Source: Candidatus Rokuibacteriota bacterium
Lineage (GTDB): Bacteria; Methylomirabilota; Methylomirabilia; Rokubacteriales; CSP1-6
DNA length: 64,000 bases
NCBI GenBank assembly: GCA_016200085.1
Contig: JACQFL010000036.1
Span: forward strand, 124,001 to 188,000
Reading direction: 5' to 3'
The translations under genes were made by a program, and so were the position numbers. Positions 10,012 to 64,000 of this stretch are shown here, piece by piece (position 1 is the stretch's first letter; each line of letters starts with the position of its first letter). The notes below the pieces were generated by a model. That model saw only the letters and a program-made list of their open reading frames with translations. It did no database searches and was not told the origin of the DNA.

Positions 10012-10428
10012 TTACGGGACCGAGGCGGTGGCGCCGTCGCCCGAGGCCGAGATCGTGAAGAAGCCGCCGGCGGCGGTGGCGAAGCCGTAGCCGCCCGCCG
10101 GGGTCCAGCCCGTCGGAACGGACGGGATGGCCGCGATGAAGGGACCGGCCGTCTGCCCCTGACCGTTGGAGGCGGTCGTGGTGAGCTGATCGAGCCCGGT
10201 CGCGGTGATGCCCGTGTGGGCCGAGTAGATCGTGATCGACGATGCCATCGACCGGACGTCCGCCTGGGCCTTGGCGATGCGCGCCCGGGCCTGGACGGCG
10301 TTGTAGAGCGGGATCGCGATGGCCGCGAGGATGCCGATGATGGCCACCACGATCATGAGCTCGACCAGCGTGAAGCCTCGCCCCCTGGTGAGCTCGTTTC
10401 TCGCCATCGACTCTGGCTCGTGCTCCAT
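10012..10428 (-). CDS. Type IV/type II prepilin-like protein
   Basis: 138 residues from ATG 10428; ATG 10407 is an alternative. A short basic leader ends in the prepilin peptidase site RG|FTLVELMIVVAIIGILA, with Glu at +5, followed by a hydrophobic helix, a charged coil (NAVQARARIAKAQADVR) and a small C-terminal domain rich in Gly, Thr and Ala. This is the PilA/GspG-like layout, though the body is short. Exported, cleaved and methylated by PilD, then assembled into a pilus or pseudopilus. No other pilus gene is nearby. A weak sigma-54-like site lies upstream. Confidence 0.9.
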   Translation of the reverse strand: MEHEPESMARNELTRGRGFTLVELMIVVAIIGILAAIAIPLYNAVQARARIAKAQADVRSMASSITIYSAHTGITATGLDQLTTTASNGQGQTAGPFIAAIPSVPTGWTPAGGYGFATAAGGFFTISASGDGATASVP

Positions 10429-10479
10429 GGAAACCCCCCGAGTCTTCAGGTTCAGAACAAACGCAAGTAACGAATTACA

Positions 10480-10494
10480 GCAGGCATTGGACCA
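10480..10494 (-). promoter_or_regulatory. Weak sigma-54-like promoter for the prepilin gene
   Basis: On the minus strand TGGTCC-N6-TGC keeps the invariant GG and GC with the 10-base spacing of -24/-12 promoters, but the rest matches poorly. Predicted start is about 40 bases before the ATG. pilA genes are often sigma-54 dependent, which adds plausibility. Confidence 0.3.
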
Positions 10495-44718: not shown

Positions 44719-45948
44719 TCACTCGGACGCCCGCCGCAGCACGAGCGTCGCGTTCATCCCGCCGAAGGCGAACGAGTTCGAGAGCGCGACCCGCACCGCG
44801 GCCGGCCGCGCGTGGCCGGGGACGACGTCGAGGTCGCACGCGGGGTCGGGGGTACGGTAGTTGATCGTCGGCGGCAGCAGCCCGCGCTCGATGGCCAGCG
44901 CCGTGGCGATGGCCTCCACCGCGCCGGCCGCGCCGATGAGGTGGCCGGTCATCGACTTGGTGGAGCTCACCGCGAGGCGGCGGGCGTGCGGTCCGAACGC
45001 CGCCTTGATGGCCGCCGTCTCGTTGGCGTCGTTGTGCGGCGTCGACGTGCCGTGGGCGTTGATGTAGTCGACGTCTTCCGGGCGTACTCCGGCGTCCGCC
45101 AGGGCGAGCCGCATGCCGCGGGCGGCGCCCTCGGTCGAGGAGGCCGTCAGGTGGTGCGCGTCAGCCGTCATCGCGTAGCCGACGACCTCGGCGTACACGT
45201 GCGCGCCCCGCGCGCGGGCCGCCTCGAGATCCTCGAGCACCACCATGCCCGCGCCCTCGGCGAGCACGAAGCCGTCGCGGTCCCGGTCGAACGGGCGGCT
45301 CGCCGTCGCGGGGTCGTCGTTGCGCGTCGAGAGCGCGCGCAGCGCGCCGAAGCAGGCGATGACGAGCGGCGTGAGCAGGGCGTCGGCGCCGCCCGCGAGC
45401 ATCGCGTCGGCGTCACCGCGCTGGACGAGCCGGAAGGCGTCGCCGATCGCCTGGGTGCCTGCCGCGCACGCCGTCGTCGGCGCCGCGATCGGGCCGCGCG
45501 CGCCGGTGCGCATCGAGACCCATCCGGCCGCCATGTTCGGCAGGCAGCCGGGCAGCGCGTACGGGCTCAGAGCCGCCGGGCCCTCGGCGCGCAGCGTGCC
45601 GTCGGTCGCGAGGATCAGCGGGATGCCGCCGAAACCGGTGCCGACGCTCACGCCGACGCGCTCGGGCTGGCGCTCGATGTCGAGCTTGCTGTCGCCGAGC
45701 GCTTCCTGCGCGGCGACGAGGGCGTACTGGATGAAGGTGTCGGTGCGGACGACGTCGCGGCGTGGCAGGTGGTCCGTGGGCGTGAAGCCCTTCACCTCCG
45801 CGGCGATCCGCGTCGGCAGGCCCGAGGCGTCGAAGCGCGTGATCGGCCCGACGCCGTTCGTGCCCGCGGCCAGCGCGGCCCAGAAGGTCTCCGTGCCGAT
45901 CCCGATGGGGGTGACGGCCCCGAGCCCCGTGATTCCCACACGTCGCAT
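44719..45948 (-). CDS. fabF: Beta-ketoacyl-ACP synthase II (FabF-type ketosynthase)
   Basis: 409 residues from ATG 45948, preceded by GGGGGGAGAG. Catalytic Cys161 in PTTACAAGTQAIGDA, His in NAHGTSTPHND near 300 and KSMTGHLIGAAG near 335, and the C-terminal NSFAFGGMNATL. Elongates ACP-bound acyl chains. As first gene of the operon with an ACP and an N-acyltransferase it is probably a pathway-specific ketosynthase rather than the housekeeping copy. The longer upstream frame is not homologous. Confidence 0.93.
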   Translation of the reverse strand: MRRVGITGLGAVTPIGIGTETFWAALAAGTNGVGPITRFDASGLPTRIAAEVKGFTPTDHLPRRDVVRTDTFIQYALVAAQEALGDSKLDIERQPERVGVSVGTGFGGIPLILATDGTLRAEGPAALSPYALPGCLPNMAAGWVSMRTGARGPIAAPTTACAAGTQAIGDAFRLVQRGDADAMLAGGADALLTPLVIACFGALRALSTRNDDPATASRPFDRDRDGFVLAEGAGMVVLEDLEAARARGAHVYAEVVGYAMTADAHHLTASSTEGAARGMRLALADAGVRPEDVDYINAHGTSTPHNDANETAAIKAAFGPHARRLAVSSTKSMTGHLIGAAGAVEAIATALAIERGLLPPTINYRTPDPACDLDVVPGHARPAAVRVALSNSFAFGGMNATLVLRRASE

Positions 45949-46258
45949 GTCTCTCCCCCCGGCCCACCGGTGCCGCCACGGGCCGATCCTGGGTCCGCCG
46001 GATTCCGGCAGGCGTGAGGTGGGGTGCAAAAAATGTGACACCCCTCGGGCACCGGCGCCAAGCGCGCGCCAGCGCTCAGGAAAACTAAGGGTGGCGAATA
46101 TCGGGGCCCGGGGACAGGGCGGAGGAACCGCGGAACAGTGACGAATTGCGGCATGTGGAGAGAGCCAGGTTGACATTTTTTGGCGGCGCGCCTCGCGCAC
46201 CGCCAGGGGAAGGAATCGCGCCGGCGCGACGCGAGTCGCAGCCCGCGCGAGGAGGGGG
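45949..46258. other. Intergenic control region upstream of the ketosynthase operon
   Basis: 310 bp with no gene. It holds a GGGGTG-N12-CACCCC hairpin at 46021-46044, an A-tract element CAAAAAATGTGACA (46027-46040) and its inverted relative TTGACATTTTTTGG (46170-46183), and a run of imperfect GC palindromes near 46185-46250. The citrate synthase stop at 46259 closes the region, so the operon promoter must lie here. Confidence 0.6.
46025..46040 (-). promoter_or_regulatory. Candidate sigma-54-like promoter of the ketosynthase operon
   Basis: Minus strand TGTCAC-ATTTT-TTGCA matches the TGGCAC-N5-TTGCA consensus except for one of the two invariant G bases at -24. Predicted start is about 65 bases before the ATG, leaving room for the GGGGGGAGAG ribosome site. 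The -24 mismatch makes it uncertain. Confidence 0.35.
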
Positions 46259-56531: not shown

Positions 56532-56853
56532 CGGCGGCCAGGCAGTCGAGCGTGGCCAGCGAGTAGACGTAGGTCTTCCAGCCGATCGCGATCGAGTCCG
56601 GGCGCTCGCCGGCGACCACCGGGGCCAGGATCGACACGCTGACGTTCGGGCCCGCGGCGGAGCAGCCGCCCGCGCACGCCTCGCGGACCCGCACCACCGG
56701 CTCGAGGTGCCGCTCCGCGATCAGCCGCCCGAGCTCGGCCGCGACGCGCCGCGCGTCGAGACGCTCGGCGCGCCCGCCCCGCCGCACCGGCAGCACCACC
56801 GTCCCCCGCTCGCGCGGGCACACGCTGATCTCGAGCCGCCGCGCCGCCGTCAT
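56467..56853 (-). CDS. Hypothetical Cys-containing protein
   Basis: 128 residues from ATG 56853. Not recognised. CPRERG near 12 and EACAGGCSAAGPNVSVSILA near 58 give three Cys that could bind metal or form disulfides, followed by WKTYVYSLATLDCLAAVIED and a basic tail. Resembles small predicted metal-binding or ferredoxin-like proteins (DUF1636 style) only loosely. Starts 3 bases into the kinase stop region, so it is coupled to the sugar kinase upstream on the strand. Confidence 0.5.
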   Translation of the reverse strand: MTAARRLEISVCPRERGTVVLPVRRGGRAERLDARRVAAELGRLIAERHLEPVVRVREACAGGCSAAGPNVSVSILAPVVAGERPDSIAIGWKTYVYSLATLDCLAAVIEDNLAPPREAARRRRSRAR

Positions 56854-57704
56854 CGCCCGCCTCGCGCGAGGTCGGCGGCGAGCCGGGCCGCCGCCTGGAC
56901 GGTCGAGCGCGCCGGCGGCCGCCAGCGCACGCGCACGCCGGCGCGCCGCATGGCGCGCGCGACGCCGGCGCGGAAGACGGCATCACCGATCACGCCGCCG
57001 CTCCAGCTCGCCTGCACGCCCGCGCGCGCCCCCAGGCGGCGCGCCACGGCGACGGCGAGCGCGGCGAGGTCGGACTGAGCCTCGGCGACGATGTGCCCGG
57101 CGTGCCGATCGCCGCGCCGGGCCCTCGCGAGCACCGCCGGCGCGCGGGCGGCGATTCGCCCGACGGCGTCGGGCGCGACGGCGATTGCGCGCAGCCCGGG
57201 GTGGCCCTGGGGGTGCGTCCGGCGGAGCCACGCGCGCCCGATCCAGAACGCCGAGCCTTCGTCGCCCAGGAGCGGGCCGAGTCCCCCGGCGCGCACCCAG
57301 TGTCCGGCGACGCGCCCGAGGACGATGGACCCCGTGCCGGCGATGAGGAGCAACCCCGGCCGCGGGTCGTCGCCCAGCGCGCCGAGCAGGCCCGCCTGCG
57401 CGTCGGACAGGGCGGTGACGCGGAGGGCGAGGCCTCGCAGGGGCCGCGCGGCGGCCCTGCGCTCGGCGGCGGTCCACACCCCGCGAGAGGCCAGCACGAG
57501 CGCCGCGACCTGCGCGCGTCGCCACCCTCGACGTCGCCACAAACGGGTCAAGAAGTTCGTCAGATCGGGGATCGTTGACACTCGTGCACGGACGCGTGCC
57601 ACGGTGCGGCCGTGGTCCAGGGCCAGGAGCCTGAGCCACGTGCCCCCACGGTCGATGCCGACCGCCAGCCGAAACGAGTGTCGGGCGCGTGACAGAGCGT
57701 TCAT
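56850..57704 (-). CDS. BadF/BadG-type N-acetylhexosamine kinase (MurK/GlcNAc kinase-like)
   Basis: 284 residues from ATG 57704. ASKHA ATPase fold: GIDRGGTWLRLLALD near 16-30 (phosphate 1), LLIAGTGSIVLGR near 118 and GGLGPLLGDEGSAFWIGR near 138, the pattern specific to GlcNAc/MurNAc kinases of the BcrAD_BadFG family. Phosphorylates an amino sugar with ATP. The nearby SSS symporter, NagZ and NamZ genes favour a role in recovering MurNAc and GlcNAc. GATAATAC lies 9 bases before the ATG, another short-leader start. Confidence 0.85.
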   Translation of the reverse strand: MNALSRARHSFRLAVGIDRGGTWLRLLALDHGRTVARVRARVSTIPDLTNFLTRLWRRRGWRRAQVAALVLASRGVWTAAERRAAARPLRGLALRVTALSDAQAGLLGALGDDPRPGLLLIAGTGSIVLGRVAGHWVRAGGLGPLLGDEGSAFWIGRAWLRRTHPQGHPGLRAIAVAPDAVGRIAARAPAVLARARRGDRHAGHIVAEAQSDLAALAVAVARRLGARAGVQASWSGGVIGDAVFRAGVARAMRRAGVRVRWRPPARSTVQAAARLAADLARGGR

Positions 57705-57778
57705 TCCGCGAAGTATTATCGTGCGCCCCCGCAGGCGCGAGGACCACGAAATCGCCGCCTTGACCACCACGTGCTCGC

Positions 57779-57794
57779 TGGCACGACTCCTGCT
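57779..57794 (+). promoter_or_regulatory. Sigma-54-like promoter before the MlaC-like gene
   Basis: TGGCAC-GACTC-CTGCT: perfect -24 hexamer, GG and GC 10 bases apart, -12 box with one mismatch. The start point would be within about 6 bases of the ATG at 57810, which is close. Confidence 0.45.
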
Positions 57795-57809
57795 GTCTAA
57801 ATCGCCACC

Positions 57810-58430
57810 ATGGGAAACGCAGCGCTCGCGCTCCTCATGCTGGCCGCGGTCTCCGTGGGATCGGGCACCCCTCGCGAGGTGGTGCAGGCCTCCGTCGGCC
57901 GTGTCCTCACCGCCGCGCAGGAGGCGCGTGTCACCTCGACCGAGGGCGCCCCGGCGCGGGGCGAAGCGCGCGCCGAGCTCCGGCGCGTCTCGACCGACCT
58001 GTTCGACTTCAACGAGATGTCCCGGCGCGCGCTGCCCCGCCAGTGGCCGCGGCTCGGCGCCGGCGAGCGCAAGGAGTTCGTCGATCTCTTCACCGACCTC
58101 CTCGCGCGCGCCTATCTCGGCCGCATCGAGGGCTACGCCGGCGAGCGCATCGCCTACCTCGGCGAGACGATCGACGGGTCGTTCGCCGCCGTCCGCTCGC
58201 GCATCACCTCGCGCCGCAACACCGAGACCGGGCTCGAGTACCGCCTGCACCTCGTGGACGGCCGCTGGCGCGTGTACGACGTCGTCGTCGACGGCGTCAG
58301 CCTGGTGGCCACCTACCGGGACCAGTTCACCCGCGTCATGCAGGCCGCTTCCTGGGGCGGGCTGCTCGACGCCCTGCGCCGGCGCCAGCTCGAGAGCCGC
58401 CCGCTCGACCAGCACGCCGAGCGCCGCTGA
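57810..58430 (+). CDS. MlaC/Ttg2D-family periplasmic phospholipid-binding protein
   Basis: 206 residues from ATG 57810. Short signal peptide (about 1-20), then VQASVGRVLTAAQEARV, FDFNEMSRRALPRQWPRLGA near 70-89, FTDLLARAYLGRIEGYAGER near 93 and GRWRVYDVVVDGVSLVATYR near 148, the conserved MlaC motifs including the VDGVSLV strand. Carries phospholipids between the membranes in the Mla pathway. No mlaD/E/F genes are adjacent, so it is an orphan copy. Confidence 0.88.
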   Translation: MGNAALALLMLAAVSVGSGTPREVVQASVGRVLTAAQEARVTSTEGAPARGEARAELRRVSTDLFDFNEMSRRALPRQWPRLGAGERKEFVDLFTDLLARAYLGRIEGYAGERIAYLGETIDGSFAAVRSRITSRRNTETGLEYRLHLVDGRWRVYDVVVDGVSLVATYRDQFTRVMQAASWGGLLDALRRRQLESRPLDQHAERR

Positions 58431-58464
58431 TCCCTCCCGCCTGACGCGTCGAGTATGATGGGGC

Positions 58465-59991
58465 GTGCCCGCCGCGGCGAGCGCGCTCACCTGGCCGGAT
58501 TACGTCGTCCTCGTCGGTTCCCTGGCCGTCCTCGTCGGCATCGGGCTGTTCTTCGGCCGCCGCCAGCACGACACGGCCGATTTCTTTCTCGCGCGCCGCC
58601 GGGTGGCCTGGTGGGCGGCGTGCCTGTCGTTCCTGGCCACGGAGATCAGCGCGGTCACCATCATCTCGGTGCCGGCCGTCGCGTACAAGGAGAACTGGGA
58701 GTATCTGCAGTTCTTCGTCGGCTCCAGCCTCGCAAAGTGGGCGGTCGCGTTCCTCTTCATCCCCGCTTTCTATCGGCACGACGTCACCACGATCTACGAG
58801 TTCCTGCACGACCGGTTCGGGCGGGCGAGCCAGGTCACGGCGTCGATCTTCTTCTTCGTCACCCGCCTGCTCGGCTCCGCCGTGCGGCTCATGGTGGCGG
58901 CGCTCGCAGTGTCGATCCTGCTCGGCGTGCCGCTCGGCCCGACCATCGCCGTGTTCATCGTGGTGTGCATCATCTACATCGGCGTCGGGGGGGTGAGCGC
59001 GGTCGTCTGGACGAACGTGTTCCAGGCGGCGATGTTCCTCGTGGCCGGGGCGGCGACCCTGGCGTTCCTCGTCTGGCACATCGACGGCGGCCTCCTCGCG
59101 GTCGTCACGGAGGCCGGGCGGGCCGGGCGCCTCGACGTCGTCAACTGGGGCCCGTCGATCGGCGCGCCGGGGTTCCTGCACCGCGCGCTCACCGATCCCA
59201 ACATCGTCTGGGTCGCGATCCTCAACGGGTTCTTCGGCTCGATGGCCGCCTTCGGCACCGACCACGACCTGATGCAGCGGCTGCTGACGGTCGAGACCCG
59301 CCGCGAGAGCCAGGTCACCCTGTCGCTGACGCCGCTCGGCACGCTGCTCACGCTCGCGATCTACCTCGGGCTCGGCGCGGCGCTGTTCACGTTCTACGCC
59401 CAGCACCCGGGCCTGCCGGTCTCCCGCCCCGACGACATCCTGCCCCATTTCGTGCGTCAGGCCATGCCGGCGGTCCTGCGCGGCTTCATGCTGAGCGCGA
59501 TCGTGCTGGCGTCCATCGACTCGCCCCTCGGCTCGCTGGCCGCCTCGTTCGTGACCGACATCTACCGGCCCCTCGTCGCGCCGCGGTCGAGCGAGCGGCA
59601 CTACCTCCTGGTCTCCCGGCTCAGCGTGGTGGTGTTCGGCGCCGTGCTCGGCGTGCTGGCGGGGTTTTTCTCGGCGTTCGACAACATCCTCTGGCTGGCC
59701 TTCAAGATCGCCGGCGTGACGTTCGGCTCCCTGCTCGGCGTGTTCCTGCTCGGGCTGCTGACCCGCCGCCGGGTGAGCGACACGGCGAACGTCGTCGCCA
59801 TGGTGGCGATGGCCGTGGTGAACGTCCGGCTGCTGTACCTCTCCGAGACCCACGTCCTCGATTTCGCGTGGTCGTGGCTGGTGATCCTCGGCACCGCCGG
59901 CACCATGGTCCTGGCCCTGGCGCTGTCGCCGATCCTCGACCGCTGGTCGGCGCGGCCGGCCGGCGTCAGGGATACGCCAGGCGGGCGATGA
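58465..59991 (+). CDS. Sodium:solute symporter (SSS family)
   Basis: 508 residues from GTG 58465, about thirteen membrane helices. FFGRRQHDTADFFLARRRVA near 30-49, FLATEISAVTIISVPAVAYK near 58 with the Na2-site region, and GVGGVSAVVWTNVFQ near 172 match SGLT-like symporters. Shares the locus with the kinase, NagZ and NamZ; in Tannerella an SSS transporter (MurT) next to MurK imports MurNAc, a useful parallel. A TATGAT box ends 6 bases before the GTG. Its 3' end overlaps the convergent nagZ. Confidence 0.9.
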   Translation: MPAAASALTWPDYVVLVGSLAVLVGIGLFFGRRQHDTADFFLARRRVAWWAACLSFLATEISAVTIISVPAVAYKENWEYLQFFVGSSLAKWAVAFLFIPAFYRHDVTTIYEFLHDRFGRASQVTASIFFFVTRLLGSAVRLMVAALAVSILLGVPLGPTIAVFIVVCIIYIGVGGVSAVVWTNVFQAAMFLVAGAATLAFLVWHIDGGLLAVVTEAGRAGRLDVVNWGPSIGAPGFLHRALTDPNIVWVAILNGFFGSMAAFGTDHDLMQRLLTVETRRESQVTLSLTPLGTLLTLAIYLGLGAALFTFYAQHPGLPVSRPDDILPHFVRQAMPAVLRGFMLSAIVLASIDSPLGSLAASFVTDIYRPLVAPRSSERHYLLVSRLSVVVFGAVLGVLAGFFSAFDNILWLAFKIAGVTFGSLLGVFLLGLLTRRRVSDTANVVAMVAMAVVNVRLLYLSETHVLDFAWSWLVILGTAGTMVLALALSPILDRWSARPAGVRDTPGGR

Positions 59992-61483
59992 CGGCGTCGA
60001 GCTGGCAGCGGCGGAAGCCGAACGCGGTGACGCCGAGGACGCGCGGCGCCAGCAGCGACGCGTCGTAGGGATCGCGCAGCAGCACCACGGCCAGCGCGCG
60101 CGCCCGACGTTGCACGGCGTCCAGGAGCGTGCGGTTCGACGGGTAGAGGTGCGCGTCGAAGAGGAACAGCACGGCCGCGTCGGCGCCCTCGGCGAGCGCC
60201 GCGGCGCCCTCGATCTCCGCCGCGGTCGGCTCGATGCCGACGAGCGCGGTGCGGGGCGCGATGCCGGCGCGCCCGAACGCCCGCGCGAGGTAGGCCTTCT
60301 CGTCGCAGAGCTCGGGCTCGATGGTGATGCGGGGCGCGAGGTCCGAGAAGCGCGGGAAGATCACGGCGACGGCGCCGTTGAGGGCGCGCGTGAAGCCGGG
60401 CGGCCCCGGGGCGATGGTGGTGACGGCCCGTGCCGCCATCGCCATGGCCAGGGCGCCGCCGTCGCGCTCGGCGGCCGGCGGCCCGCCCTCGAAGCGCGCC
60501 GTGCGCGACGTGCGCGGCCGCCGCACGCGCTCCGCCGCGCGCTCGAGATCGCGCAGGGGGAGCGCGCCGCGGCGATGAGCGGCGACGAGGGCGGCCGCCG
60601 CGGCGCGCTGGGCCGCCGCGGTGTGACAGACGAGCAGCAGGTCGTGGCCGGCCGCCGCGGCGCGCACGGCCGCCTCGCCGATCGGGCAGGCCTCGCTGAC
60701 CGCGCCCATCTCGAGGTCATCCGAGACGATGACGCCGCGGAAGCCGATCTGCCCGCGCAGGTACTCCTCGACGATCAGCCGCGAGAACGTGGCCGGGACC
60801 CCGGACGGATCGAGGTTCGGGTACACGGGGTGCGAGGTCATGACGCACTCGACCCCGGCGGCGATGGCCTCGAGGAACGGCACGAGGTGGACGGCGTGCA
60901 TCTCGTCCCACGTGGACTCGATGGTCGGCAGGCGCAGGTGGGCGTCCAGCGGTGAGTGGCCCTTGCCGGGGAAGTGCTTGGGACACGCGGACAGCCCGCC
61001 CCGCATCGCGCCCTTGATCCGCGCGACTCCGTAGCGCGCGACGAGGTGCGGGTCCTTGCCGTACGAGCGGATGCCGATGTTCGGGCTGTAGCGCTCGGTC
61101 AAGACGTCCAGGCAGGGGCCGAGGGTGAGATCCACGCCCAGGCGCCTGAGCTCGCGCGCCTCGATCAGCCCCTGGCGCGCGGCGAACGCTTCCTCGCCGG
61201 CCGTGCCGACGGCGAGGTTGTCCGGGAAGATCGTGACCCCGCGCCCGAGCATCACGATGCGCCCGCCCTCGTGGTCCGTCGCCACCAGCAGCCGGCGGCC
61301 GAGAGCCTCCTCCAGCCGGGCGAGCAGCGTGACGAGCTGGGTGGGGCTCTCGAAATTCCGCCGGTAGAGGATGAGGCCGGCCGCGCGCGTGTCGCGGAAG
61401 AGGGCGACGTCGTCGTCGCCGAGCGTGGGCCCCGGCAGGCCGATCATCAGGCGCTCGCCGACCAGGTCCTCGACGTCGATCAC
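59966..61483 (-). CDS. nagZ: Beta-N-acetylhexosaminidase NagZ (GH3)
   Basis: 505 residues from GTG 61483. LLVATDHEGGRI near 64, CPKHFPGKGHSPLDAHLRLP near 163 (substrate-binding KH and the acid/base His region), HPVYPNLDPSGVPATFSR near 217 and nucleophile Asp in VSDDLEMGAV near 250 are the NagZ set. A C-terminal domain of about 170 residues follows, as in the longer Gram-positive-type NagZ. Releases GlcNAc from muropeptide fragments. A TAGAAT box stands 6 bases before the start. Confidence 0.92.
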   Translation of the reverse strand: MIDVEDLVGERLMIGLPGPTLGDDDVALFRDTRAAGLILYRRNFESPTQLVTLLARLEEALGRRLLVATDHEGGRIVMLGRGVTIFPDNLAVGTAGEEAFAARQGLIEARELRRLGVDLTLGPCLDVLTERYSPNIGIRSYGKDPHLVARYGVARIKGAMRGGLSACPKHFPGKGHSPLDAHLRLPTIESTWDEMHAVHLVPFLEAIAAGVECVMTSHPVYPNLDPSGVPATFSRLIVEEYLRGQIGFRGVIVSDDLEMGAVSEACPIGEAAVRAAAAGHDLLLVCHTAAAQRAAAAALVAAHRRGALPLRDLERAAERVRRPRTSRTARFEGGPPAAERDGGALAMAMAARAVTTIAPGPPGFTRALNGAVAVIFPRFSDLAPRITIEPELCDEKAYLARAFGRAGIAPRTALVGIEPTAAEIEGAAALAEGADAAVLFLFDAHLYPSNRTLLDAVQRRARALAVVLLRDPYDASLLAPRVLGVTAFGFRRCQLDAVIARLAYP

Positions 61484-61489
61484 GCGGTG

Positions 61490-61495
61490 ATTCTA
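61490..61495 (-). promoter_or_regulatory. Candidate -10 box of nagZ, leaderless
   Basis: TAGAAT on the minus strand, 6 bases before the GTG start, so the message would begin at or very near the start codon. No clear -35. Confidence 0.35.
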
Positions 61496-61530
61496 CCGGA
61501 GGGGCGCTGGAAAAAGTTACACGCTCCCGC

Positions 61531-61546
61531 CGGCACGCCGCTTGCT
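61531..61546 (+). promoter_or_regulatory. Sigma-54-like promoter of the glycine-zipper gene
   Basis: CGGCAC-GCCGC-TTGCT differs from the TGGCAC-N5-TTGCW consensus at one base only. The predicted start is about 45 bases before the ATG at 61602, leaving a leader with GGAGG. Confidence 0.6.
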
Positions 61547-61601
61547 AAGCTTCTTATCGGTTCCTGCGGAGCGACCGCATCCGTCCGAGTGGAGGATACC
61601 C

Positions 61602-62120
61602 ATGAACCAGTGGAATCCCTGGAAGCTGACCGCGATCGGCTTGGTGTTGGTGGTTGCGACGGCCCTCATCACCGGGGTGGTCGTCGCGCGCTGGTTCGGC
61701 GATCGTGCGCCCGAGGTCTCGGGAGCATCCTCGCCTTCGACGTCGGTCGCGACCCGGTCGACGCCGGCGCCCGTCGCCACGCAACCGGCTCCGCCTCGCG
61801 TGGTCGCCCAGGCCGGCCCGCCGCCCGAGAGCGTGGTGCAGGACTGTAACCGCAAGGCCGCGGAGGAGAGCGGCGTGCGCGACAAGACGTGGGACACCGC
61901 GAAGGACGCCGGGATCGGCGCGGTGGCCGGCGCGGCCGTGGGCGCGGCGACCGGCGCCATCGCGGGCGGCGGCAAGGGCGCGGGCAAGGGCGCCGCGATC
62001 GGCGGCCTGGTGGGTGCCGGCGGCGGGACGCTCTACGGCCTCAACGAGAACCACAAGCACGACGAGCGCTACCGCGCGGCCTACTCGGCGTGCATGCACG
62101 CGCGCGGGTATACCGGCTAG
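61602..62120 (+). CDS. Membrane-anchored glycine-zipper protein
   Basis: 172 residues from ATG 61602 with GGAGG 6 bases upstream. One N-terminal membrane helix (AIGLVLVVATALITGVVVAR), a Ser/Thr/Pro-rich linker (about 40-75), and a Gly/Ala zipper GAVAGAAVGAATGAIAGGGK near 108-127 continuing to about 145, with two C-terminal Cys. Such zippers insert in or associate with membranes, as in envelope-stress lipoproteins. Exact role unknown. Confidence 0.8.
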   Translation: MNQWNPWKLTAIGLVLVVATALITGVVVARWFGDRAPEVSGASSPSTSVATRSTPAPVATQPAPPRVVAQAGPPPESVVQDCNRKAAEESGVRDKTWDTAKDAGIGAVAGAAVGAATGAIAGGGKGAGKGAAIGGLVGAGGGTLYGLNENHKHDERYRAAYSACMHARGYTG

Positions 62121-62132
62121 TCTCCTAGCCTC

Positions 62133-62197
62133 GAGGGGGCCGTGGGCGCGCGCCGGGCCGCCGCGGCACCACACTTGCCGTGCGCCACGGCCCCCTC
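62133..62197 (+). terminator. Long GC hairpin between glycine-zipper and secreted-protein genes
   Basis: A 13-bp perfect stem (62133-62145 with 62185-62197) enclosing 39 bases with a smaller CGGCA/TGCCG hairpin (about 62164-62180). No T tract follows. May terminate the upstream gene or act as a structured RNA element. Confidence 0.4.
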
Positions 62198-62234
62198 CAG
62201 AACCGCTCCCCGTGATTCACAGTGGGGTCCACTC

Positions 62235-62250
62235 CGGCAGACTCTTTGCA
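62235..62250 (+). promoter_or_regulatory. Sigma-54-like promoter of the small secreted protein genes
   Basis: CGGCAG-ACTCT-TTGCA: GG and GC 10 bases apart, perfect TTGCA at -12. Predicted start about 55 bases before the ATG at 62316. Confidence 0.55.
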
Positions 62251-62315
62251 TCCTGCCTACACGGTTACCAACGCCGCAGCGTGTCACTTGAGGCGCGGCG
62301 AAACGGGGAGGGACG

Positions 62316-62639
62316 ATGAGAACGCGAGCACTCGTATTCTCGGCGGCGGCCGTGTTGCTCGTGGCGATCACGGCGCCGGCTCTGGCCGGTCCGGGCGGGC
62401 ACGGCGGTGGGCCGGCCGCTGGGGGACCGCCGCCCGGCGCGGGGACCAACAGCGACCGCGGCGGCGCGGTGCGCGGACTGGACCGCGCCGACCAAGTGGC
62501 GGGCGAGCACGGAGACAAGGGCCGCGACCTTGCCGAGACGCGCAGCAACAAAGGCGGCAAGCGGCGCGGTCCGAATCGCGCGACGGACGTGGCCGGCCAG
62601 CACGGCGCCGACGGACGCGCGGAGAAGCCGGCCAAGTAA
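62316..62639 (+). CDS. Small secreted Gly/Arg-rich protein
   Basis: 107 residues from ATG 62316 with GGGAGGGAC upstream. Clear signal peptide (ALVFSAAAVLLVAITAPALA), then a low-complexity Gly/Pro stretch and a charged tail in which RGLDRADQVAGEHG and RATDVAGQHG form a degenerate repeat. Not recognised; exported, probably disordered. Confidence 0.65.
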   Translation: MRTRALVFSAAAVLLVAITAPALAGPGGHGGGPAAGGPPPGAGTNSDRGGAVRGLDRADQVAGEHGDKGRDLAETRSNKGGKRRGPNRATDVAGQHGADGRAEKPAK

Positions 62640-62699
62640 GCCGCACCAGCGGTAGCGGCGACAAGTTCGTTGACGGCGGTCGAAGAAGGAGGTGTCGTC

Positions 62700-63029
62700 A
62701 TGAAGATGATGCTGCTCGTGCTGCTGGCGCTGGCGCTCGCCGCCTCTCCGATCGGTCCCGCGGAGGCCGCCGACGACAGCAAGGTGAAGGAAGGGACGAG
62801 CCGTGTCGAGTCGGGCGCGGGCAAGATCGGCGAGGGCGTGAAGGAGGCGGCCAAGGGGGTCGGCACGACGGTCTCCGAGGGCGCGAAGTACACCGGCGAG
62901 AAGCTGAAGGAGAGCGGCCACGCCGCGGAGCCGGAGGCGCGCAACGCCTGGGAGCATCTCAAGCAGAGCGCCACCCACGCCGGCCACAGCGTCAAGAAGT
63001 TCTTCACCGGACTCTTCGGCGGAGACTGA
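62700..63029 (+). CDS. Small secreted amphipathic LEA/apolipoprotein-like protein
   Basis: 109 residues from ATG 62700, with AGGAGG 7 bases upstream; an earlier in-frame start at 62670 lacks a site. Signal peptide (MLLVLLALALAASPIGPAEA), then Lys/Glu/Gly-rich repeats (KVKEGTSRVESGAGKIGEGV, KEAAKGVGTTVSEGAKYTGE) forming amphipathic helix like late-embryogenesis-abundant proteins, and a C-terminal VKKFFTGLFGGD. Possibly a membrane- or desiccation-protective protein; function inferred from composition. Confidence 0.7.
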   Translation: MKMMLLVLLALALAASPIGPAEAADDSKVKEGTSRVESGAGKIGEGVKEAAKGVGTTVSEGAKYTGEKLKESGHAAEPEARNAWEHLKQSATHAGHSVKKFFTGLFGGD

Positions 63030-63030
63030 T

Positions 63031-64000
63031 TCAGTACATCAGGTGACGGGCGCGGCGGCGGCGCCAGGCGCGGAGCGCGGGCCCCCACTCCGGCGCGATC
63101 TCGCTGACGGGGCGGCGGCGCTCGATGGCGCGTCGGATCCGGTCGGTGCCGCAGAGGATGTCGATCGGCAGCCGGCGGCGCTCGAACTCGTACGGCGGGC
63201 GGCGCCACGCGAAGGCGCGCGGGGCCAGCCGCCGGGCCGTCGCGATCAGCGTGAGGTACGCGGCGTAGGGCTCGAAGCGGCGCGGGTCGGTCACGTGCAC
63301 CTGGACCCCGCCGCAGAGGCGTCCCGCCCACTTGTGGAACGTCGGGGTGAAGCGGGAGGGCCGGAATCTCACGCCGGCCAGCCCCGCCTCTTCCAGCGCG
63401 GACGCGAACCGGTGAGCGTCCAGGAACGGCGCGCCCACCCACTCGAAGGGGCGCGTCGTGCCCCGTCCCTCGGACAGGTTCGTGCCCTCGAGGAGGCACG
63501 CGCCCGGATAGACGCGCGCGGTGTCGGGCGTGACCATGTTGGGCGACGGCGCGACCCACGGTAGGCCCGTGTCCTCCCACACCATCGCGCGGCGCCAGCC
63601 GCGCATCCTCACGATCGTGAGCCGGCAGCCGAGCGCGTGCTCCGCGTTGAGGTACGCCGCCACCTCGCCGATCGTCATGCCGTGGCGCGCGGGCAGGGGA
63701 TAGAGCCCCACGAACGACGCGAACTCGGGATCGGGGACGTTGCCCTCGACGGTCAGGCCGCCGAGCGGGTTCGCGCGGTCGAGCACGATGACCTCGACGC
63801 CCGCGCGGGCGCACGCCGCCATGGCCAGCGCCGTGGTCCACTGGAAGGTGTAGTAGCGCGAGCCGACGTCCTGCAGGTCCACCACGAGCGCGTCGAGCCC
63901 GCGGAGCATCGCCGGCGCCGGCGCGCGGCGCGCGCCGTAGAGGCTGGTGACGGGCAGCCCGGTGACGGGATCGCGCGTGGCGCGGATGGCCGCGTGATCC
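63031..64000 (-). CDS. namZ: Exo-beta-N-acetylmuramidase NamZ (DUF1343, GH171), N-terminus beyond right edge
   Basis: At least 323 codons, open to the window edge. PVTSLYGARRAPAPAMLRGL followed by DALVVDLQDVGSRYYTF is the DUF1343 signature; RANPLGGLTVEGNVPDP near the middle and GTNLSEGRGTTRPFEWVGAP further on are equally conserved. NamZ removes terminal MurNAc from peptidoglycan fragments. It faces the same direction as nagZ and supports a muropeptide-salvage role for the region. Confidence 0.9.
   Translation of the reverse strand, partial: DHAAIRATRDPVTGLPVTSLYGARRAPAPAMLRGLDALVVDLQDVGSRYYTFQWTTALAMAACARAGVEVIVLDRANPLGGLTVEGNVPDPEFASFVGLYPLPARHGMTIGEVAAYLNAEHALGCRLTIVRMRGWRRAMVWEDTGLPWVAPSPNMVTPDTARVYPGACLLEGTNLSEGRGTTRPFEWVGAPFLDAHRFASALEEAGLAGVRFRPSRFTPTFHKWAGRLCGGVQVHVTDPRRFEPYAAYLTLIATARRLAPRAFAWRRPPYEFERRRLPIDILCGTDRIRRAIERRRPVSEIAPEWGPALRAWRRRRARHLMY

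Follow-up and report, generated by a model that had tools for sequence, protein, structure and literature searches.

A conserved, probably sigma-54-dependent promoter ahead of mlaC, and a candidate envelope regulon in Rokubacteria-like bacteria

Are envelope genes of an uncultured bacterium of the Candidatus Rokuibacteriota expressed from sigma-54 promoters, and do these promoters form one regulon? The question was raised by a stretch of 64,000 nucleotides of its genome (hereafter the window, positions 124,001 to 188,000 of contig JACQFL010000036.1), in which the original prediction had placed sigma-54-type sites ahead of an mlaC-like gene, a glycine-zipper gene, genes for secreted proteins, a prepilin gene and a ketosynthase operon. 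We propose that segment 57679-57794 is, quite probably, an enhancer-dependent sigma-54 promoter for mlaC, presumably served by an NtrX-like activator and belonging to an envelope regulon.

All positions of the window were scored on both strands with a literature-based sigma-54 matrix, the threshold of 12 being set after the scores were known. The site ahead of mlaC (TGGCACGACTCCTGCT, 57779..57794, plus strand) ranked first and the site ahead of the glycine-zipper gene (CGGCACGCCGCTTGCT, 61531..61546, plus strand) second, followed by those at 46025 (third), 62235 (fourth) and 10479 (eighth). All five predicted sites were found in place; the exact GG-GC spacing core fails at 46025, where GG reads GT. 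Their number is not above chance, however. Four sites scored at least 12, where dinucleotide shuffles averaged 2.47 (four were reached in 19 of 100), and three scored at least 13, where the average was 1.06 (three were reached in 11 of 100). TGGCAC-N5-TTGC with up to two mismatches was counted 41 times in the window, for 48 expected. No Rfam match at gathering score was obtained within the window. Since the counts do not beat the shuffles, conservation was used to decide and, at the level of sequence, it settles the sigma-54 claim for two sites, 57779 and 61531.

Gene conservation was searched in a family of 57 genomes, and 30 loci were fetched per gene. All counts come from this single family, and its members are not independent of one another; the named contigs nearest in mlaC were nearly all Candidatus Rokubacteria. 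A site scoring at least 12 was present within 120 bp of mlaC in 29 of 30 orthologous loci, for a shuffle expectation of 0.25 and 0 of 120 in a control with coding pieces. It lies 31 bp ahead of the mlaC ATG in the window, and 31-90 bp ahead of the expected start in relatives. When the 29 loci were aligned (L051 has no site), TGGCA and TGC were invariant, the bases in between varied, and no overlapping extended −10 was seen (0/29).

A de novo search for dyads, covering the stretch from 45 to 170 bp ahead of the −24 element and accompanied by 20 shuffles, returned TGTC-N8-GACA as the top dyad for mlaC (13 of 29 loci; shuffle maximum 5). With zero or one mismatch it was found in 21 of the 29, against 1.3 in shuffles, at 87-111 bp from the −24 element. 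The window copy (TGTCGGGCGCGTGACA, 57679..57694, plus strand) has no mismatch and begins 100 bp ahead of the −24 element. Between dyad and promoter, column conservation in the 29 promoters aligned on the site revealed a partly conserved, AT-richer element (57748..57761, plus strand); some relatives' copies look like an IHF site.

The second conserved site stands 71 bp ahead of the glycine-zipper gene (61602..62120, plus strand), whose 172 aa product matched Gly-zipper_Omp and YMGG slightly under their cut-offs and had a match in 54 of the 57 genomes, paralogues counted. In 29 of the 30 loci (a contig end cuts L044, which was dropped), a site scoring at least 12 was present within 420 bp in 14 cases and within 1,400 bp in 25, for shuffle expectations of 0.25 and 0.93. 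In several relatives a short gene precedes the glycine-zipper gene, and the site stands upstream of that short gene. The dyad search, on the 27 loci with a site of at least 11, ranked GTCA-N6-TGAC first (11/27) and TGTC-N8-GACA second (10/27), the two being nested (shuffle maximum 5); allowing one mismatch, the dyad was present in 20 of the 27, against 1.0 in shuffles, and at 88-100 bp from the −24 element in all but one. A third gene behaved alike: the glmU site was conserved in 18 of 30 loci, and TGTC-N8-GACA was found in 9 of the 19 (out of 30) with a site, against 0.45 in shuffles.

Dyad and site were then combined into one composite pattern, TGTC-N8-GACA, a gap of 68-98 and TGGCA-N7-TGCW, which is blind to C-initial sites such as that of the own glycine-zipper gene. 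Pattern searches of this kind are independent of the matrix, yet the patterns derive from sites that the matrix had found. In 56 genomes the composite gave 51 matches, distributed over 34 of them, and its backwards control none. The genes that follow are mlaC (14), the glycine-zipper gene or its operon (10), lpxC (6), genes of OmpA/Pal-like lipoproteins (4), PilZ (3), Mur ligase (2), bactofilin (1) and glmU (1), the remaining 10 being other or unassigned. Pfam was used on both Mur ligases and on a single member of each of the LpxC, bactofilin, OmpA and PilZ groups. Pairwise alignment served for the remaining lpxC, Pal-like and PilZ genes and, among the 14 mlaC genes, for 11; glycine-zipper and glmU targets were assigned from position and reading. 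Relatives carry this dyad ahead of lpxC, Pal-like, Mur ligase and glmU genes as well. Because the pattern itself derives from the promoters of mlaC and the glycine-zipper gene, their 24 matches out of the 51 are not independent of it; the other 27 are. The own genome holds one match only, the mlaC promoter.

The own genome (3.57 Mb in 57 contigs, completeness 94.6%) has the machinery that such promoters need, and both rpoN and enhancer-binding proteins, which the original prediction called for, were found. A single rpoN match (PF04552, E 1.2e-61, DNA-binding domain present) contains ARRTVAKYRE in its translation and lies, by eye, in a gene run lptC-lptA-lptB-rpoN-rapZ. The sigma-54 activator domain matched in 14 places, in 10 of them over the full domain; the loop of these ten reads GAFTGA or GSFTGA in seven and GAFTDA in three. 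Two large open reading frames about 20-28 kb ahead of the window (L010 and L011, contig C2) have an N-terminal activator-type AAA+ domain in which GAFTDA replaces GAFTGA, followed by what looks by eye like a cyclase-like part and a second ATPase domain. A further site, TGGTACCGAAATTGCA (L456:3914-3929, contig C51), either directly precedes or coincides with the start of the lptC-like gene heading the run that contains rpoN; autoregulation of rpoN is possible.

A candidate for the activator is suggested by the lpxC operon. On contig C4, a sigma-54-like site scoring 14.3 lies 35 bp upstream of lpxC, which is followed by a gene of 188 aa (presumably DUF4390), a kinase frame that is NtrY-like by eye and position, and an activator whose best NCBIfam match was NtrX (NF051870, 509.8 bits, under the cut-off of 600; the scan covered three of the ten own-genome activators). 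The order lpxC, small gene, ntrY-like, ntrX-like was recovered, as far as contigs reach, in the six relatives with an exact composite ahead of lpxC. A GAFTGA protein is present in five of them, the sixth contig stopping inside the kinase gene, and four of these NtrX-like proteins, when aligned, were 74-80% identical to the own one. An activator encoded in an operon that bears its presumed binding site is a usual sign of autoregulation, which makes the NtrX-like protein our candidate.

On this basis a mechanism can be drawn. Once phosphorylated by the NtrY-like kinase, the NtrX-like response regulator encoded in the lpxC operon would bind the TGTC-N8-GACA dyad, loop to the sigma-54 RNA polymerase and open the promoter. 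The promoter at 57679-57794 would drive mlaC and probably also the symporter gene downstream, and the regulator would autoregulate through its own lpxC operon. An envelope signal could then produce a joint rise of lipid A synthesis, peptidoglycan precursors, the link of outer membrane to wall, and lipid transport. In its general form, the proposal is that Rokubacteria-like bacteria have one sigma-54 regulon for outer membrane and cell wall, in which the NtrYX pair encoded with lpxC switches on the operon it belongs to and, via TGTC-N8-GACA, mlaC and the glycine-zipper operon; some members would add Pal-like, Mur ligase, glmU and bactofilin genes. We lean towards it with slightly better than even confidence. 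If this is true, lipid A, peptidoglycan and lipid transport would all answer to a single signal.

Several observations weigh against this mechanism. Of eight own-genome promoters checked for the dyad (mlaC, glycine zipper, 62164, 62235, lpxC, lptC-like, response regulator and glmU), only that of mlaC had an intact copy at the usual distance. The own lpxC dyad has one mismatch at −155, then two, and is not at its usual place, and none of the eight own-genome stretches searched, among them that of lpxC-ntrYX, contained a composite even when one mismatch was allowed. The own glycine-zipper promoter has no intact dyad, its best copy having three mismatches; an upstream activating sequence about 80-150 bp upstream is thus seen for mlaC and not for this copy, which is best explained as a predicted sigma-54 site that has lost its dyad or carries it elsewhere. 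At the family level, 22 of the 56 genomes are without an exact composite, 10 of the 51 targets fall outside the envelope groups or could not be assigned, the lack of independence of 24 matches mentioned above lowers the weight of the count, and the activator gene examined in relatives was the one beside lpxC only. In addition, the window's mlaC dyad shares bases with the opening codons of a divergent kinase-like gene, so coding constraint could contribute to its conservation. Finally, the published NtrX motif is termed a direct repeat (PMC7240162).

It may be that the sites are sigma-54 promoters and that a different enhancer-binding protein, GlrR/QseF-like or another of the GAFTGA proteins, binds the dyad, the NtrX-like gene being merely a target within the lpxC operon. 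The QseF consensus TGTCN10GACA (PMC8745638) has identical half-sites and two extra spacer bases, seven GAFTGA or GSFTGA proteins are encoded in the own genome, where NCBIfam was run on three of ten activators, and no activator gene of that genome adjoins an intact composite. Against this, the dyad has a spacer of 8 rather than 10 in the mlaC and the glycine-zipper sets alike, so that the GlrR/QseF site TGTC-N10-GACA was not what was found here, and in relatives the composite heads the very operon that contains the NtrX-like gene. We regard this alternative as possible but rather doubtful.

Alternatively, an ordinary transcription factor might recognise TGGCA...TGC as a palindrome (GCA-N7-TGC), or the motif might belong to a sigma-70 promoter of the extended −10 type, and sigma-54 would then play no part. 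Such a promoter is suggested ahead of mreB, where a well-placed TGNTANNNT was present in 28 of 28 sites, and a TAGAAT lies near the glmU site in many relatives. The mlaC sites are of another make: besides lacking any extended −10, they are asymmetric, with the first G invariant in all 29 and GC followed by T or A in 28 loci and by G in the last, where a palindrome calls for C; the motif is found, moreover, ahead of a pilA gene that follows an activator gene. This makes both versions very unlikely. As to the sites being chance matches in a window of 72% GC, the counts that do not exceed shuffles and the failure to recover the 46025 site in relatives would fit, and the conservation at mlaC and at the glycine-zipper gene, together with a composite that has no backwards matches, would not. 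Chance is contradicted for 57779 and 61531, and may hold for 46025 and 62164; as an account of the sites as a whole, it is hardly credible. An NtrX-responsive sigma-54 promoter ahead of mlaC is our preferred explanation.

How far does the predicted common envelope regulon extend? The evidence supports it at mlaC and, through the relatives, at the glycine-zipper gene, the two sharing the dyad; it gives no support at the ketosynthase site, and the prepilin site is of another type. The ketosynthase site, TGTCACATTTTTTGCA (46025..46040, minus strand), precedes a fabF-like gene (44719-45948) and has the inexact core described above. Among the 18 of 30 fetched loci that were examined, it was seen in the own genome alone, a weak test of recurrence because most of these loci were fabF genes in another gene context, one being close (68% identical). 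This site was set aside and is probably not a sigma-54 promoter, given the broken GG and the failure to find it again in the relatives examined.

The prepilin site, TGGTCCAATGCCTGCT (10479..10494, minus strand, score 10.8), lies 66 bp ahead of a type IV prepilin gene (10012-10428, minus strand). Among family pilin loci, 15 of the 26 examined (out of 30, one with a guessed offset) had a score of at least 12. The dyad test, done on 19 of the 26, selected for having a site, gave a different dyad, TGAC-N7-GTCA, in 9 of 19, and exact TGTC-N8-GACA in none.

A separate promoter was met ahead of mreB. A site of the form TGGCA[CT]...CTGTGCTA (C3:41217-41232, minus strand, in the own genome, locus L126; L127-L155 in relatives) was present in 29 of 30 family loci. 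In all 28 that could be aligned (L135 is without a site and L150 too short) it overlaps an extended −10, which is why we do not claim it as a clean sigma-54 promoter; a dual sigma-70/sigma-54 promoter of this cell-shape gene is possible on sequence grounds. Its dyad is GAAAA-N5..9-TTTTC (17/28), with no exact TGTC-N8-GACA (0/28). Outside the family, 2 of 20 mreB upstream regions (one of the 20 just 134 bases long) reached 12, neither resembling the family site. A single regulon for all sites was thus rejected, as mreB and pilA carry dyads of their own.

The remaining predicted site, CGGCAGACTCTTTGCA (62235..62250, plus strand), has the GG-N10-GC core and no dyad, and lies 81 bp ahead of a gene for a small protein of 107 aa (62316..62639, plus strand) with a start that resembles a signal peptide by eye and no Pfam family; matches, mostly short and poor, were found in 9 of 57 genomes. 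A weaker GG-N10-GC site, CGGCACCACACTTGCC (62164..62179, plus strand), ranked 17th in the window.

Over the whole own genome, the pattern YGGCAYRNNNNNTGCW occurred 10 times, against 62 for the backwards pattern, a gap that codon usage may widen. Two of the ten places are the mlaC and glycine-zipper sites of the window, and three lie ahead of mreB, glmU and the pilA that follows an activator gene. The other five are a lipoprotein-like open reading frame without Pfam match (just downstream), a 16S rRNA-like contig end and three coding-like regions. The sigma-54-like pattern was also rarer than its backwards control in most family genomes, with exceptions among the matches listed (G022 and G055, for example). 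Of the family matches listed, 60 were fetched for gene context, the known mlaC and mreB ones excluded. In two relatives (L291 and L298) a gene for a bifunctional transglycosylase lies 42 and 66 bp downstream of a TGGCAC...TGC site, identified as such in L291 by Pfam (Transgly and UB2H) and in L298 by eye. The site-bearing genes of two others (L299 and L308) resemble by eye those of PEP-CTERM or secreted proteins, a class that is under a sigma-54 activator. A recurrent sequence among the matches listed, TGGCACATCGAGTGCT, was set aside, its own-genome copy lying, by eye, inside a cysS-like frame.

The mlaC gene (57810..58430, plus strand) encodes a MlaC/HpnM-like protein of 206 aa (PF05494, E 2.1e-37; 89.2 bits with HpnM TIGR03481, under the cut-off of 160.1). 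A sodium:solute symporter gene (58465..59991, plus strand, PF00474) follows after 34 bp and, judging from this short gap, is probably co-transcribed. The divergent gene (56850..57704, minus strand) encodes a BadF/BcrA-type ATPase (PF01869, E 1.8e-17), perhaps an amino-sugar kinase. The region 56850-63909, with this ATPase, the symporter, a GH3 enzyme that may be NagZ-like and NamZ, resembles a peptidoglycan-recycling cluster.

The system is of a known kind; its composition and its upstream sequence are new. PilR, sigma-54 and pilA form a known promoter system of equal class, and here too the own-genome pilA with a site follows an activator gene, while the family pilA dyad differs from that of mlaC. 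A search of the literature (sigma-54 or RpoN with mreB, glmU, lpxC or NtrYX; Rokubacteria sigma), most subscription journals being outside its scope, returned no description of such a regulon among the matches listed. A 2025 sigma-54 survey reports enrichment of COG0774 (the LpxC group) in Myxococcia, its main text being without mreB or Methylomirabilota, and in a Desulfovibrio sigma-54 study the largest group was that of cell-exterior functions.

The comparative genomics of Francke et al. 2011 (PMC3162934) ties sigma-54 to the bacterial exterior, with peptidoglycan, LPS and lipoprotein synthesis. Our family likewise joins sigma-54 with envelope genes, and differs from that account, whose main text names neither mreB nor glmU, in that one dyad and one candidate activator would unite mlaC, lpxC, Pal-like and Mur/glmU genes. 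In Rhodobacter sphaeroides (PMC7240162), NtrX of the NtrYX pair bound ahead of envelope genes, and ahead of its own operon too; no NtrX site upstream of lpxC is identified in the part available, and RpoN is unnamed in the main text, whereas in the present family lpxC lies inside the ntrYX-like operon and the promoters are sigma-54-like. The sigma-54-exterior idea and the alphaproteobacterial NtrYX-envelope idea would thus be joined by a defined DNA signature in a distant, uncultured lineage. As this signature both suggests an activator and lists targets, the question is open to binding and reporter assays. The closest likeness in the DNA itself is with QseF/GlrR-glmY of enterobacteria (PMC8745638, PMC6075780), described as a sigma-54 activator for envelope homeostasis: the TGTC...GACA half-sites are shared, but there the spacer is 10 and the target a small RNA, and here the spacer is 8 and the targets are structural genes.

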